The notes under the pieces are model-generated. The model was not told the DNA's origin. It saw only the letters and a program-made list of their open reading frames with translations, and made no database searches. The position numbers were made by a program, and so were the translations under genes. From an uncultured Pseudomonadota bacterium (lineage in GTDB: Bacteria; Myxococcota_A; Bradymonadia; Bradymonadales; Bradymonadaceae): a stretch of 35,086 nucleotides of DNA. Below, piece by piece: positions 15,170-35,012 of the stretch. Positions within the stretch are counted from its first letter, which is position 1; each line of letters starts with the position of its first letter. The stretch is taken from NCBI GenBank assembly GCA_950059285.1, contig CATLTV010000035.1:1-35086 (forward strand), written 5' to 3'.

Positions 15170-19507
<4,338 letters not shown>

Positions 19508-19587: not shown

Positions 19588-19759
19588 AAGTGAAGTGCAT
19601 TGCCTTGTGAGACACAGGCGGATGTACGATTTATGATAGACACTGGCTACCTGCTCACGGGCGTGACGATATGTGACGCTGCACACGGTGAGAGGAGCCA
19701 TCATCCAAGCGCTGCGACAACAGGTTACAGATGTAGCCGCCAGCAGCCAGGAGGCGACC

Positions 19760-23923
<4,164 letters not shown>

Positions 23924-23930
23924 GCTCACT

Positions 23931-26725: not shown

Positions 26726-27141
26726 GGTATGCTCACTGTTGACAACTTTGATGGATGGAGCTCATCTTCACATGGCCACCTATCAGGTGTATAATTACGA
26801 TGTGATGTGTGAATGACCAAATCTTGGTAACCCTGCGATGCTACCATGTTTTGTTTCAGCATCGCAAGAGAAGCTGCGCTTATAGAAATAGTTGTCATAG
26901 GCTCATTTGTTTCCATGTTATCTGTGTCTGCACAGATGTGCTCTGACCTCCACACATGCTTCTCATTCGCCCGATTTGTCTCGTCGACCTGATGTCACAC
27001 ATCGGTGAGAAAAAATGTGACCTGCACTGGTGATGACCGCTCTATTGAAGGCGAGTCACACATCCAGATGTGGCCATCACGTGTGCTAAGCACTTTTAAA
27101 TTCTGCACTCAACACTCACCTCCTTTTTGTTTGGAGCCTTG
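26726..27141. promoter_or_regulatory. 416-bp divergent gap, possible long leader of the membrane gene
   Basis: No gene is convincing; the minus-strand frame 26722-26955 overlaps the kinase start and lacks coding character. The gap holds a strong plus-strand promoter (26767-26795) about 340 nt before the next start codon. Within the predicted transcript is a stem-loop at 26835-26865 (GCGATGCT/AGCATCGC), a second at about 26920-26937 (ATCTGTG/CACAGAT) and a short one near 27046-27060 (CACATC/GATGTG). A leader RNA or a small RNA is possible; no clear terminator is visible inside. Confidence 0.35.
26767..26795 (+). promoter_or_regulatory. Strong sigma-70-type promoter
   Basis: TTCACA (26767-26772), a 17-nt spacer, and consensus TATAAT (26790-26795). 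Eleven of twelve bases match. Transcription would start near 26802 and run toward the 27142 gene. Confidence 0.55.
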
Positions 27142-28203
27142 ATGAGCAATCAAAACGATACAGACGATCTCTTGCAGAGCTTGCAAGACCGTTCCAATAG
27201 CAATGACGCACCTGTGGAAGAAGATAACTCTCCTGCCGAGGACATTGACGCGTTCCTTGCAGGTCTTGAAGACAGCGCTTCAGATTCACCGCCCACGCCC
27301 ACTGCATCCAAACCAAGCGAGCCCGATCCTTTTGCTGACGCCTTTGGAGAGCTTGAGTCCCTTCACGGCGATGCCGTGGAACAGGAGCTCGCCATGAAGT
27401 ACGCGGCAGCCGAGCCAATCAAGGAAGAGCCTCCTGTCAAGGTCGCCGAGGTTGAAGCTGCTCCTCTTGCCAAGACTCCTGAACAGGACGCACCTCCTGT
27501 GAAGGAAGAGAAGGCCGAGAAAAAGGCGGACAAGAAGGCCAAGAAAAAGAAGCCCGAGGGTAAGATCAAGGTCGTCGAGACAGAACGCTCCAAGGGGTTC
27601 TTGTTCACCATGGGGCTCCTCAAGTGGAGCACGATCATGATGCCCGTGCTGCTTGCCTCATGGCTTGTGGGTGCCTTTGTGGGTGAATATCTCGCCACGG
27701 GTTGGGCGATCTTGTTGATTGCCTTGCTGCCCCTGTTGCTCGTGCCGTTGATCCTCAAAATGGTGCTCAAACGTGGGCGCTGGTGGTACTTTGCCTTGCC
27801 TCTTTCCTTGTTGACGCTCGGTGCACTTGTGGGCCTCTCTCCTGGCGGAGCAGGGACGGCGATGTCTTATTACGGGCACTGGCCTGTATCCACGGTGTCT
27901 CAACTTGCTGGTATGGAGCCTGATAATGCGTTTGTACGCAGCAACGCCTATGTCTCGGAGTTTGTAGGTACACAGGTTCGAGGGCTCGACGCCACCGCTC
28001 CTCAAAACAAAGATCTGCTCGCTCGAGCACTTGGCACTGAAACCGAACTTGTGACCTGGGCCGATGCACAACGTAAGGAAGCTGCGGCAAAATCTGCCGA
28101 GGAAAAAGCTGCACCCGCTGCCACAGAAGAGACCAAAAAAGAGGAAGCTCCTGCGGCTGATGAGGCCAAGGCCAAGGAAAATACTCCAGAAACTGGCAAA
28201 TAA
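27142..28203 (+). CDS. Unknown membrane protein with acidic and Lys-rich tails
   Basis: 353 residues from the ATG at 27142, which has GGAG five nt upstream. Residues 1-95 are acidic and disordered (DDLLQSLQDR, AEDIDAFLAGLEDS, FADAFGELESL, short leucine-containing motifs that may bind partners). A very basic stretch follows (about 121-143, KKADKKAKKKK). Three hydrophobic helices lie at about 161-182, 185-208 and 215-235. A region of 70 residues with conserved-looking aromatics follows (MSYYGHWPVSTVSQLAGMEP). The end is low-complexity Ala, Glu and Lys. I recognise no family. It is probably an inner-membrane protein with a large cytoplasmic front part. It is followed by a convergent terminator. 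Confidence 0.75.
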   Translation: MSNQNDTDDLLQSLQDRSNSNDAPVEEDNSPAEDIDAFLAGLEDSASDSPPTPTASKPSEPDPFADAFGELESLHGDAVEQELAMKYAAAEPIKEEPPVKVAEVEAAPLAKTPEQDAPPVKEEKAEKKADKKAKKKKPEGKIKVVETERSKGFLFTMGLLKWSTIMMPVLLASWLVGAFVGEYLATGWAILLIALLPLLLVPLILKMVLKRGRWWYFALPLSLLTLGALVGLSPGGAGTAMSYYGHWPVSTVSQLAGMEPDNAFVRSNAYVSEFVGTQVRGLDATAPQNKDLLARALGTETELVTWADAQRKEAAAKSAEEKAAPAATEETKKEEAPAADEAKAKENTPETGK

Positions 28204-28797: not shown

Positions 28798-29607
28798 ATG
28801 CCACAGAGAATACTGGGATACATGAGTAATGATAATAGCTTGACTCCCTTGGCGTTCCAGAAGGTATCGCAAGAGGTCACGCTAGATACGTCGATGAGTT
28901 CTGGGCTGGGACTCAGTTTCATTCAACAGGATCGTGTGCTGGAGCGTAAGAGCCCGCAGATGACAGGAGGCGTGCACGACGTCTTTGGTTTGCTGTCCGA
29001 TGCGCCAACGCGTGCGTTGGTGGCGTGCGTCCAGGATGAGATCCTTTCACATACCCGCGAGATGAGTCCACACAGGTTCAAGGACTGGATTTACGCAGAG
29101 GGCATGATTGGTTCACGCGAGTTAAGAGGCGCAGAGGATCTTAATGCCGCAAGTCTTGAGAGGTTGCCTGACTTTCTGATGCGTAACGTCAGTGAGGATG
29201 TGCCTGCAAGCGTCCGCTTCTTTGACCTGATGTACGAGCTCTTTCAGCGTGATATCTACCATGTGGTCGAGCATCGACGTGAGGAAGCTGCGAAGGCATT
29301 TGCTGCAAGTATTGCACGTATGCATCACGCATCCGATGCGCCATTCCATGCGATGTTGATGAACCAAAAGTTCATGATGGCTGCAGCCGTGGGCGAGCCT
29401 CTTTATTACCGCACGATCAAGGGCATTGAGCAACCTGCTCCGCCGCCCTTGTACGAGGGCGAGCGCACTCGCCCTGTGAAGTCCCCACACTTCAGGGCCG
29501 TGATTATTGCCAGTCTAGACGAGGCTGGTAAAGAGTGGCAGACGCTTGAACCAGGTAAGATTTTGTTCCTCAAAAATGGCTGGGCGCTTGATACTGTTGA
29601 AATTTAG
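28798..29607 (+). CDS. Unknown soluble protein
   Basis: 269 residues from the ATG at 28798, supported by AAGGAG seven nt upstream. No signal peptide or membrane helix is seen, so it is probably cytoplasmic. The middle is helical (APTRALVACVQDEILSHTRE, RFKDWIYAEGMIGSRELRGA, SVRFFDLMYELFQRDIYHVV). The C-terminal 60 residues look like beta strands (FRAVIIASLDEAGKEWQTLE, GKILFLKNGWALD). I recognise no family or catalytic motif. It is a single gene ending 29 nt before a long palindrome. Confidence 0.75.
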   Translation: MPQRILGYMSNDNSLTPLAFQKVSQEVTLDTSMSSGLGLSFIQQDRVLERKSPQMTGGVHDVFGLLSDAPTRALVACVQDEILSHTREMSPHRFKDWIYAEGMIGSRELRGAEDLNAASLERLPDFLMRNVSEDVPASVRFFDLMYELFQRDIYHVVEHRREEAAKAFAASIARMHHASDAPFHAMLMNQKFMMAAAVGEPLYYRTIKGIEQPAPPPLYEGERTRPVKSPHFRAVIIASLDEAGKEWQTLEPGKILFLKNGWALDTVEI

Positions 29608-31442: not shown

Positions 31443-32171
31443 ATGCTAATTGGCTACAACAATGACGTGAAGTATCGAGGCAAGGTCTTTCATATTCAGA
31501 CTGAGGATAGAGGGAATCTTGCGATGCAGATTGAGACACAGATTTTTCATGCTGGTGCGATCCTGGATACACGCATTGTCTCCTACGAGGATCTGATCGC
31601 AGGTGAGTCTGATCAGGAAGCGCGTAACCGTACCATCAAGACCCTGATGCAGAAGACCCACAAGGAGCTGTACAGGAACCTGTTCTCGGGTGGTTATGAT
31701 CACTTCGTAGGTCTTGAGCCACGAGGCACGGACAAGGTTGAAGAGGTCGAGGAAGATGCCGAGGACTTTACACCTGGTCAGGATGGTGTGCCCGAGGCTG
31801 CGATTGCGCTTGAGCAGGATGGCAAGCTTACAGAAGAGCTCAAGGGTGTTGCAGGTGGTGAGCATATTGACCTGTCATCCTTGAAGAGTCGTCTGGCAAA
31901 GGTGAGCTCTCCTGAGATCAGTGAGCCCGAGGAGGAGGCAGCCAAGCCTGCATCTGTGAGCGGGATGTTGAAGCCAGTTTTATCACTGAACAAGAAGCCA
32001 GCACCCAAGGTCTCGGCACCCAGTTCAGTGAAGAGGGCTCCAAGTAAATCCTTAAAAAATAGTGCAGATCCCATTGCGTCATGGGGGCAAACAGGTGTAC
32101 AAGCTTGGCAAGGTTGCGAGCCCTCCACCTCAGATCTTGACCTCGTCAAGTTGGTGGACGCGCTGCTGTAA
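31443..32171 (+). CDS. Conserved protein of unknown function
   Basis: 242 residues from the ATG at 31443. The N-terminal 95 residues look compact and conserved (MLIGYNNDVKYRGKVFHIQT, AGAILDTRIVSYEDL, LMQKTHKELYRNLFSGGYDH). From memory, proteins opening with GYNxDxxYxGxxxHxQTED are frequent in delta-proteobacteria, but I cannot give a function. The remainder is acidic, then Lys/Pro/Ser-rich and probably disordered, ending in a short helix (SDLDLVKLVDALL). There is no signal peptide. A GGAG lies 16 nt upstream, farther than usual. It lies 120 nt before ftsE on the same strand; a small CCACGAG/CTCGTGG hairpin sits between them. Confidence 0.75.
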   Translation: MLIGYNNDVKYRGKVFHIQTEDRGNLAMQIETQIFHAGAILDTRIVSYEDLIAGESDQEARNRTIKTLMQKTHKELYRNLFSGGYDHFVGLEPRGTDKVEEVEEDAEDFTPGQDGVPEAAIALEQDGKLTEELKGVAGGEHIDLSSLKSRLAKVSSPEISEPEEEAAKPASVSGMLKPVLSLNKKPAPKVSAPSSVKRAPSKSLKNSADPIASWGQTGVQAWQGCEPSTSDLDLVKLVDALL

Positions 32172-32291
32172 CGCTGAACACGTAAGTTAAAGATACAATT
32201 GAAAGATAGTCCACGAGCAGGATGCCTCGTGGCGCATCGGTTACAAGGATGTGACTGATGAGATCAGTTTAGAATGCAAGGATGCTTAGTT

Positions 32292-32996
32292 ATGATCTCA
32301 TGTTTTCACTTGAAGGTGCAGCACCCTCGTCAGGAAGGGATGCTGCTTGATGACGTCTCATTTGAGATAGAGACAGGGGGATGGGCCGAGTTCACAGGCG
32401 AGTCTGGCTGTGGCAAGAGCGCGATCTTTTCGATGCTCAGCCTGCGTACGATTCCCAAAGAGGGGACGCTCATTGTGGCGGGTCGTAACCTGTCTCGACT
32501 TCCTCAGCGCAAGCTTGAGAGGTTGCGCGCCAAGATTGGTTCATGCGCGCAAACGCCTCGTTTGCTCGAGGATCGTACGGTCGTTGAGAACCTCCTCCTC
32601 CCTTTTGTCGCACGCAATCAACTGAAAAAAGCACCCCGTCACGTGGATGAAGTCATTGAGCAGCTTGAGCTTGGTGCGCTTCGTGACTTGCCCGTGCGTA
32701 TGTTGTCCGAGTCCGAGCGCCGCGTGGTCGGCATCGCTCGCGCATGTGTGGGTGATCCTGCAATGATTCTTATTGATGGTGGTTTTGAGTATCTCGACCT
32801 CGTCTGGAAGAAGCGCGTGCGTGCACACCTCAGGCGTCTGCACCGAGAGGGAAGGACCGTGGTGTTGTTTGGTCGTGAGTCCGTGGGACCCATGACAGGT
32901 CGTGGTGTGGAGTTCCGCATTACACAGTCATCCATCGAGCCTGTGGAGCGCTCTGTGCATGCTCCTAGCCCAGAGATTGGGAGGCGTCGTCCATGA
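32292..32996 (+). CDS. ftsE: FtsE-like ABC ATPase with degenerate catalytic motifs
   Basis: 234 residues from the ATG at 32292, which has AAGGA nine nt upstream. The Walker A motif is intact (GESGCGKS, 36-43) and the Q-loop is FtsE-like (IGSCAQTPRLLEDRTVVENL, Q87). The other catalytic elements are altered: the signature LSGGQ reads LSESE (138-142), the Walker B Glu is Gly163 (ILIDGG), and the H-loop His is Arg195 (VVLFGRES). It may bind ATP but hydrolysis looks impaired. FtsE drives FtsX at the divisome to switch on cell-wall amidases through EnvC. Its stop overlaps the ftsX start (ATGA), so the assignment rests on sequence and operon. LolD or MacB ATPases are alternatives made unlikely by context. 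Confidence 0.9.
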   Translation: MISCFHLKVQHPRQEGMLLDDVSFEIETGGWAEFTGESGCGKSAIFSMLSLRTIPKEGTLIVAGRNLSRLPQRKLERLRAKIGSCAQTPRLLEDRTVVENLLLPFVARNQLKKAPRHVDEVIEQLELGALRDLPVRMLSESERRVVGIARACVGDPAMILIDGGFEYLDLVWKKRVRAHLRRLHREGRTVVLFGRESVGPMTGRGVEFRITQSSIEPVERSVHAPSPEIGRRRP

Positions 32997-33931
32997 TCGA
33001 ATCACCCATCAAGGCTCTCAAGCAAAGAAGAGGGGAGACGCTCGGTGTGGTCTTCCTGTTTGTGCTTTCGTTTTTTCTGCCTGGTGTCATCCTGATTGCT
33101 GCCGAGCGCACGCATGACCATGCAGAAGAATGGCTGCTTGCCTATCAACCCATGTTGTATGTGCAGGAAGGCGCATCTGTGGAGCAAGTTGCATCCTTGC
33201 AAGATGAGCTGTCGCGCTGGCCAGGGGTCAAGCAGGTTGTAAAGCATGATCGCAAGGACGCCTTGAAGGTGTTGTCCGAGTCGCTGGGTGAGGAGCGCGT
33301 GAATCATCTCGGGATCTCCGAGTCGATGTTACCTACAAGCCTTGAGGTGGTGCCAAACGTACCTTTGCAGGGGCATATTGAGCTTGCAAGCAAGGTCGCT
33401 GCGCTTGAAGTGCGCGATGAGGTTGCCGCCGTTGATGTGCCCGACAAGGATGCGTTGCGTTTGATGAGCTTTGTGCGCACCATCTCGCTAGGTGCCATCA
33501 TGATGCTTTTGATGATGTGTGCTACAGCGTTGCTGCTTGGTCGTGCGTATCTCCGAAGGATTCAGGATGATGAGGGCGATATGTCCGAGATTCTTGAGGT
33601 TTTTGGTGCTTCACATCGTTCGCTTTCAAAACCAACCATGCATCGTGCGTTGATGTTGAGCGTGTGGTCTGGTGGTCTTGCTTCCGTGGCATTGTTCATT
33701 GCGCAGCTTAACCTTGATCGCTGGGCGAGCGGTATTTTTGGCACGGATGCCATGGTGCCTTTGACCTGGTTGGTGGTGTTTCTTCCCCTGATTTCATCGC
33801 CGTTTGTTGGCTTTATGCTTGGAAAGATGGCCGTGGGCTTTGACTCCTTCAAGTTCAAGCGCTCCACAGGTTTTGCTGATATTCAATCGCTCCTGCGTTT
33901 TACACGTCAGGAACTTCCCGTGACCCCATAG
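32993..33931 (+). CDS. ftsX: Cell-division membrane protein FtsX
   Basis: 312 residues. It begins inside the end of ftsE (4-nt overlap), implying coupled translation. Four membrane helices are visible (about 15-36, 164-183, 218-238, 257-277). The periplasmic domain between the first two (37-160) is the part that contacts EnvC-type activators. The conserved FtsX segment MSEILEVFGASHRSLSKPTM follows helix 2. The length and topology match the family. It transmits the state of FtsE across the inner membrane to the cell-wall hydrolase system. The EnvC-like gene starts 16 nt downstream. Confidence 0.95.
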   Translation: MIESPIKALKQRRGETLGVVFLFVLSFFLPGVILIAAERTHDHAEEWLLAYQPMLYVQEGASVEQVASLQDELSRWPGVKQVVKHDRKDALKVLSESLGEERVNHLGISESMLPTSLEVVPNVPLQGHIELASKVAALEVRDEVAAVDVPDKDALRLMSFVRTISLGAIMMLLMMCATALLLGRAYLRRIQDDEGDMSEILEVFGASHRSLSKPTMHRALMLSVWSGGLASVALFIAQLNLDRWASGIFGTDAMVPLTWLVVFLPLISSPFVGFMLGKMAVGFDSFKFKRSTGFADIQSLLRFTRQELPVTP

Positions 33932-33947
33932 AGGAACTGCATCGGTT

Positions 33948-35012
33948 ATGCGACATCATGTTGTAAAATCTCTGTATGCTGCGAGCCTGTTGCTCTCTGT
34001 GTGCGCGGTGACATTTGGCGCCGTGGTGCTGGTGCATGGTGAGACTGTGCATCAGACCGTATTCTTTAACCTTGAAGAGGCCGATGCGCGTGCACACAAA
34101 GCAGGTCGGCAAGCTCATGCACTACAGGGTGAAGTCGCTGAGCACGAGACGGTGATTCAGGCGACGCTGGAAGAGCTCGATGTCACACGTCGTGCGACCG
34201 AAAAGCTGCGCCGCGAGCTTGTGGCTCAACATGTAGACTGGTCTCGCTCTTACCGTCAGCTCAATCGACGCAAGAGCAGGGAAGTGGGTCATCATGACAG
34301 GTTGGCGCGTATGCTCAAGCATGCGGCTCCTCAGGCGATGGCTGCCCGCATTGATGATCATCGAATCGTGAGCGTGCTTGATCGCGGCGAGGATCGCATC
34401 CAGCAACTGGTCGGCGCTCAGGGTGGTTTGATTGTCAGATTGGCTCAGGAGAAGGCAAGTCAACAGGCCGCAAAAGAGGAGTACAGCTCCACGCTCAAAA
34501 AAGCCAAGAAAGCCTCATCCTCCACAATCTCCCGTGACCTCAAGGTCACCGATGAGAAGCTCGCCAAGTCCATGAGCTTGATCCTGAAAAATCCCTCTAC
34601 CAAGGATTTCCACCGCTACAAGGGTACGCTTATTCCTCCTGTGAAGGGGCAACCTTCGTACACTTATGGGTCAAGAAAGCAAAAGGACTCCGCGAGTTAT
34701 GTGCGCCATACGGGCTACACATATATGGTGGACAAGGGGACTGAGGTACGCGCAGTGTCATCAGGTCTTGTCTCATATGCTGAGCGTTTTGAAGGCTTTG
34801 GTTTGCTGCTGATTATTGACCATGGCACAGGATATCACACCATTTATGCGCACCTGAATGACTTCAAGGTCAAGGTCGGTGACAGAGTAAGCAAGGGCGA
34901 CACCATCGCGCTGACAGGAGAGTCTGGCAGTCTTGATGGACCAAAGCTTTACTTTGAACTGCGTAAAAAAGGTAAGCCTATCAATCCTGAAGACTGGTTT
35001 ATCCGTCACTAG
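33948..35012 (+). CDS. envC: EnvC-like activator with coiled coil and degenerate LytM domain
   Basis: 354 residues. A signal anchor or signal peptide spans about 9-30. Residues 40-110 and 150-215 are charged coiled-coil helices, as in EnvC, where they bind FtsX. The C-terminal LytM (M23) domain spans about 225-354 (KGTLIPPVKGQ ... LIIDHGTGYHTIYAHLNDFK ... GPKLYFELRKKGKPINPEDW). Zinc ligands are incomplete: H254 remains, the HxGID Asp is Thr258, and the His of the final HxH is Tyr335. EnvC of E. coli also lacks zinc ligands and activates amidases without cutting itself, so this is probably a periplasmic activator. Position directly after ftsEX supports this. Confidence 0.9.
   Translation: MRHHVVKSLYAASLLLSVCAVTFGAVVLVHGETVHQTVFFNLEEADARAHKAGRQAHALQGEVAEHETVIQATLEELDVTRRATEKLRRELVAQHVDWSRSYRQLNRRKSREVGHHDRLARMLKHAAPQAMAARIDDHRIVSVLDRGEDRIQQLVGAQGGLIVRLAQEKASQQAAKEEYSSTLKKAKKASSSTISRDLKVTDEKLAKSMSLILKNPSTKDFHRYKGTLIPPVKGQPSYTYGSRKQKDSASYVRHTGYTYMVDKGTEVRAVSSGLVSYAERFEGFGLLLIIDHGTGYHTIYAHLNDFKVKVGDRVSKGDTIALTGESGSLDGPKLYFELRKKGKPINPEDWFIRH

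Follow-up and report, generated by a model that had tools for sequence, protein, structure and literature searches.

The analysis suggested that the FtsE encoded in the window (the whole stretch of 35,086 nucleotides that was analysed) is a genuine FtsE with no second copy, that this protein became a pseudo-ATPase in its lineage, and that FtsEX there would serve as a scaffold recruiting EnvC independently of hydrolysis, possibly with ATP bound. From the sequences compared, we place the probability of this reading at about 0.72. By alignment, the window's family and almost the entire order Bradymonadales lack the motifs for ATP cleavage (catalytic Glu, H-loop His and LSGG signature), whereas every FtsE of the family retains the P-loop Lys and the Mg-binding Asp. 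Because the catalytic residues were lost and the gene is still under purifying selection beside its usual partners, the division switch of Bradymonadales probably works without spending ATP.

The ftsE-ftsX-envC operon of the window

The operon and the FtsE motifs were located as follows.

32292..32996, + strand: ftsE, 234 aa, degenerate ABC ATPase subunit; best NCBIfam match TIGR02673 FtsE
32397..32420, + strand: Walker A GESGCGKS (residues 36-43), unaltered and with Lys42; Lys present in 18/18 family members
32550..32552, + strand: Q-loop Gln87, kept; Q 16/18 in the family
32703..32717, + strand: signature LSESE (138-142), replacing LSGGE; GG pair 0/21 in the order
32775..32780, + strand: Walker B Asp162 and Gly163, Asp retained, catalytic Glu replaced by Gly; D 18/18, E 0/18 in the family
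32874..32876, + strand: H-loop Arg195, His replaced by Arg; R 16/18, H 0/18 in the family
32993..33931, + strand: ftsX, 312 aa, FtsX extracellular domain at residues 55-137
33948..35012, + strand: envC, 354 aa, predicted coiled coil, then zinc-less LytM domain (residues 253-347)

The ftsE frame starts at the ATG at 32292, where the orthologues also begin; a second in-frame ATG lies at 32274. Its stop overlaps the ftsX start by four bases (ATGA, 32993-32996), and ftsX and envC are separated by 16 bases. Relative to E. coli FtsE, K41 corresponds to K42, Q86 to Q87, LSGGE to LSESE, D162 to D162 and E163 to G163. The H-loop column was read from multiple alignments, in which R195 occupies the His position with no His within 5 residues; the pairwise alignment to E. 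coli FtsE slips a gap there. Alignment thus bore out the coordinates and residue changes of the preliminary description (Walker A kept; LSESE, Gly163 and Arg195 altered). Among the features that define an FtsE, the window protein carries a Walker A of the form GxxGxGK[ST], the Walker B Asp and adjacency to ftsX in an ftsEX operon, and lacks the catalytic Glu, the H-loop His and the LSGG signature.

The top NCBIfam models of the three operon proteins are FtsE, FtsX and EnvC, all scoring under strict equivalog cut-offs. TIGR02673 was the top family for FtsE at 118.9 bits, against 83.9 for the next and a curated cut-off of 264.85, and NF008644 (EnvC) was the top match of the window EnvC, also under its cut-off. 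The window FtsX passed PF18075, the FtsX extracellular domain, with 34.5 bits (cut-off 23.5). The window EnvC matched PF01551 (M23/LytM) with 101.6 bits, and the Zn ligands of its LytM domain are replaced, as they are in E. coli EnvC (PMC11627006); the coiled coil expected of an EnvC lying 3' of ftsX is predicted by a low-confidence model. The operon is intact, with FtsX and EnvC that look normal, as had been described. An envC with a zinc-less LytM domain lies directly 3' of ftsX in those family members whose loci extend that far. The AlphaFold models of FtsE (mean pLDDT 58, with the N-terminal 70 residues below 50) and EnvC (mean pLDDT 51) were of too low quality for comparing folds and were left out.

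Upstream, the 242-aa protein immediately 5' of ftsE (31443-32171) and the proteins at 28798-29607 and 27127-28203 had no Pfam match. A 509-codon open frame on the - strand (22400-23929) is probably a shadow frame; the long + strand frame opposite it (19673-23923), which follows rpoB, is probably rpoC. In the aligned part, the product of rpoB itself (15197-19489) exceeds that of most relatives by some 40 residues (1431 vs ~1390).

FtsE in Bradymonadales and other Myxococcota

Two papers describe Bradymonadales as facultatively predatory bacteria and place them in Myxococcota (PMC11509652, PMC7460792). A scan with an FtsE fragment gave Lujinxingia vulgaris (Bradymonadales) as a named match in the window's family. 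Aligning FtsE from the lineage, the check proposed in the preliminary description, covered 21 proteins, 18 from the window's GTDB family and 3 from a sister family. None of the 21 has the H-loop His or the GG pair of the signature, and 19 are without the catalytic Glu; the Walker A Lys was retained in 19/21 and the Walker B Asp in 21/21. Loss of hydrolysis beside an intact operon is well supported, and it withstood the refuting condition set in the preliminary description, in that none of the close relatives has a normal pair of Glu and His.

Within the window's family (n=18), the Glu position holds G in 12 proteins, A in 4, S in 1 and D in 1, and the His position holds R in 16, S in 1 and T in 1; the D-loop Asp is mostly gone, being present in 2/18. 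Other residues became newly fixed: R195 (16/18), C85 (17/18), E33 (17/18), P104 and R108 (both 18/18), and also W31. In this survey the comparison set was picked as canonical, so that 100% Glu and His follows there from the choice itself; the unselected count is that of 21 Bradymonadales against 143 other Myxococcota FtsE. The three sister-family proteins differ: L031 retains Walker A and Glu, L035 lacks the Walker A Lys and retains Glu, and L083 lacks both. FtsX was found in 18/21 genomes of the window's family and with certainty in 3/5 of the sister family. In G001 and G012 (genus g2) and in G007, all of the window's family f1, an FtsX of this type was not found and relatives have one; at a completeness of 87, 84 and 87%, this may reflect complete loss of ftsEX, or gaps.

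Outside Bradymonadales, Glu and His are both kept in 130/143 sampled Myxococcota FtsE. The remaining 13, which lack one or both, represent at least two further lineages and belong to f31 (8/8), f54 (2/2), and f60, f24 and f44 (one of two genomes). The occurrence of the degenerate state in 21/21 within the order and 13/143 in the outside sample indicated more than chance. The rpoB tree lacks f24, includes some incomplete rpoB rows and has low support at its base; it joins f31, f54 and f60 in one clade (100/99) separate from Bradymonadales and requires at least three changes of FtsE state. His to Arg was seen again in 8 of the 13 degenerate outsiders, in the switch region (L163, L166, L167, L193, L195, L201, L232 and L246). 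The EnvC stretch preceding LytM spans ~113-150 residues in readable cases of f31, f54 and f24, compared with ~200-245 in canonical genomes. The loci L282-L292 of these families, with degenerate FtsE, also have a more diverged EnvC-like LytM domain.

We consider it somewhat better than an even chance that hydrolysis was dropped at least three times in Myxococcota while FtsX and EnvC were kept, and that FtsEX in these lineages is a hydrolysis-free scaffold marked by the recurrent change of His to Arg. Living intermediates suggest that the His and the signature would have been lost before the Glu, and the Walker A Lys last, with L035 as an exception.

Division partners and rival explanations

No second FtsX with a periplasmic domain was found in any Bradymonadales genome; each has at most one FtsX_ECD match, always in the ftsE-adjacent FtsX. 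One full Amidase_3 enzyme occurs in nearly every genome. Since the window genome encodes a total of five M23 proteins, it may have further amidase activators. Most of the genomes carry a normal FtsA; G001 and G002 (window's family) and G021 and G024 (sister family) gave no more than weak matches, probably reflecting assembly gaps. Absence of FtsA as an escape from a block of the E. coli type was therefore rejected. Loss of the autoinhibitory restraining arm of EnvC, which would have done away with the need for an ATP stroke, was likewise rejected for the window's family, as the stretch before LytM has ~205-222 residues there vs ~201-245 in Myxococcota with canonical FtsE; these lengths come from clear family cases, several rows being unusable owing to start-codon choice.

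The loss of the usual residues could potentially be offset by a rebuilt active site, in which ATP is still hydrolysed by displaced residues, such as an acidic residue 166 acting as the base and Arg195 standing in for the switch His. Position 166, a Gly in canonical FtsE, is acidic in 15 of the family's 18 proteins (13 E, 2 D), and the frequency of Arg195, together with the recurrence of His to Arg outside the order, would fit such a repair. However, 166 is non-acidic in 3/18, the signature GG and D-loop Asp are gone as well, the Walker A Lys is missing from two proteins of the sister family, and His to Arg needs just one base change, making a rebuilt site unlikely. About equally improbable is that selection was relaxed, with FtsEX on its way out of the lineage and FtsE a decaying relic. 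The genomes G001, G012 and G007 without a detected FtsX (87, 84 and 87% complete), the further motif losses in the sister family and the short envC part before LytM in f31, f54 and f24 point in that direction, but ftsE frames are uninterrupted in 18 genomes at ~40% identity. Between three Lujinxingia genomes, to which the estimates were limited because dS was saturated in farther pairs, dN/dS was 0.06, 0.11 and 0.10 for ftsE and 0.17-0.19 for ftsX. These ftsE values, the intact operon and the residues newly fixed family-wide indicated that the degeneration of FtsE is not decay.

Pairs of a degenerate and a consensus site occur in other ABC proteins, and FtsE could in principle pair with a different, intact ABC ATPase in a mixed dimer, the partner supplying hydrolysis; the FtsE model has 66 matches in the window genome, which encodes many ABC ATPases. 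The preliminary description had likewise raised another ATPase as a driver of FtsEX and a second, complete ftsE as something to look for. No second canonical ftsEX was found, either among the window genome's best FtsE-like paralogues or across the Bradymonadales genomes. The five best paralogues adjoin permeases of the MacB/LolC type or adaptors, as assigned from adjacent frames rather than family scans. There is also no second FtsX with an extracellular domain to serve, and with the catalytic and the signature sides of FtsE both gone, a mixed dimer would have no complete composite site. We therefore regard outside hydrolysis of this kind as very improbable. The shortfall of the window FtsE against the TIGR02673 cut-off might suggest a misassembly or a paralogue taken for FtsE, but FtsE is its best family by 35 bits, ftsX is adjacent throughout, and the same degenerate state recurs in 18 separate genomes, including the single-contig G005, G008 and G010. 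Relatives with the same state left this explanation a negligible chance, and it was ruled out.

A probable hydrolysis-free FtsEX and its known counterparts

FtsEX of E. coli recruits EnvC without ATP hydrolysis; hydrolysis relieves an FtsA-mediated block on septal synthesis and gives the best EnvC activity, and FtsEX with FtsE D162N recruits EnvC and promotes cell separation once that block is bypassed (PMC7343993). Structures tied the activation of EnvC to ATP binding and resetting to hydrolysis (PMC7668044, PMC11627006), and binding rather than hydrolysis was proposed to free the EnvC restraining arm (PMC7668044). In Bradymonadales, FtsE may still bind Mg-ATP as a structural or slow-exchange ligand, without hydrolysing it. 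The FtsEX scaffold would anchor FtsX at the Z ring and position EnvC, which, once placed, would activate the single Amidase_3 enzyme, with timing set by recruitment and other division proteins instead of an ATP cycle. FtsEX would thereby be used for the recruiting step only, the FtsA block having been lost. Since hydrolysis-dead FtsEX of E. coli blocks septal wall synthesis via FtsA, yet FtsA is normal in Bradymonadales, a compensating change must exist; none was found in FtsA or in the EnvC stretch before LytM.

The earlier proposal that the switch runs on ATP binding alone is plausible in the window's family, where Lys42 and Asp162 (18/18) and Gln87 (16/18) are kept, but does not extend to the sister family, where 2/3 FtsE lack the Walker A Lys and ATP binding seems dispensable too. 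Without the signature, a tight ATP sandwich might fail to form, and this counts against a state locked by ATP relative to a nucleotide-independent one.

The need of FtsEX for ATP hydrolysis is puzzling, as the dead E. coli mutant blocks septal synthesis yet lets EnvC promote separation. Bradymonadales, with the cultured members Lujinxingia, Bradymonas and Persicimonas, would be a natural lineage seemingly past the FtsA block, allowing one to ask directly what alterations of FtsX, FtsA or EnvC do away with the need for hydrolysis. If the scaffold reading is true, hydrolysis, held necessary throughout septation, is dispensable in some Myxococcota. In the open-licence literature on FtsE in bradymonads, in Myxococcota or with degenerate or missing catalytic residues, no natural pseudo-ATPase FtsE was described, which is weak evidence of novelty.

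The closest known systems are the type VII ABC FtsE proteins of E. coli, P. aeruginosa, V. cholerae, M. tuberculosis and S. pneumoniae, with which the window FtsE shares its position before ftsX, its top FtsE model, Walker A, the Walker B Asp and, as partners, an FtsX with an extracellular domain and an EnvC-type protein. Unlike them, it lacks the catalytic Glu, the H-loop His, at whose position Arg is fixed, and LSGG, and the D-loop Asp is mostly gone in its family. The laboratory ATPase-dead FtsE D162N of E. coli is, like the window FtsE, expected to be non-hydrolysing and able to sit in an FtsEX that holds EnvC. However, D162N alters the Mg-binding Asp that Bradymonadales FtsE keeps, and it blocks septal wall synthesis via FtsA, whereas the Bradymonadales state is natural and fixed across the order with FtsA present. 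The zinc-less LytM domain of EnvC provides a parallel one step downstream, an enzyme fold retained as a non-catalytic regulator, although its activity is absent in E. coli too, unlike the loss of catalytic residues in FtsE.
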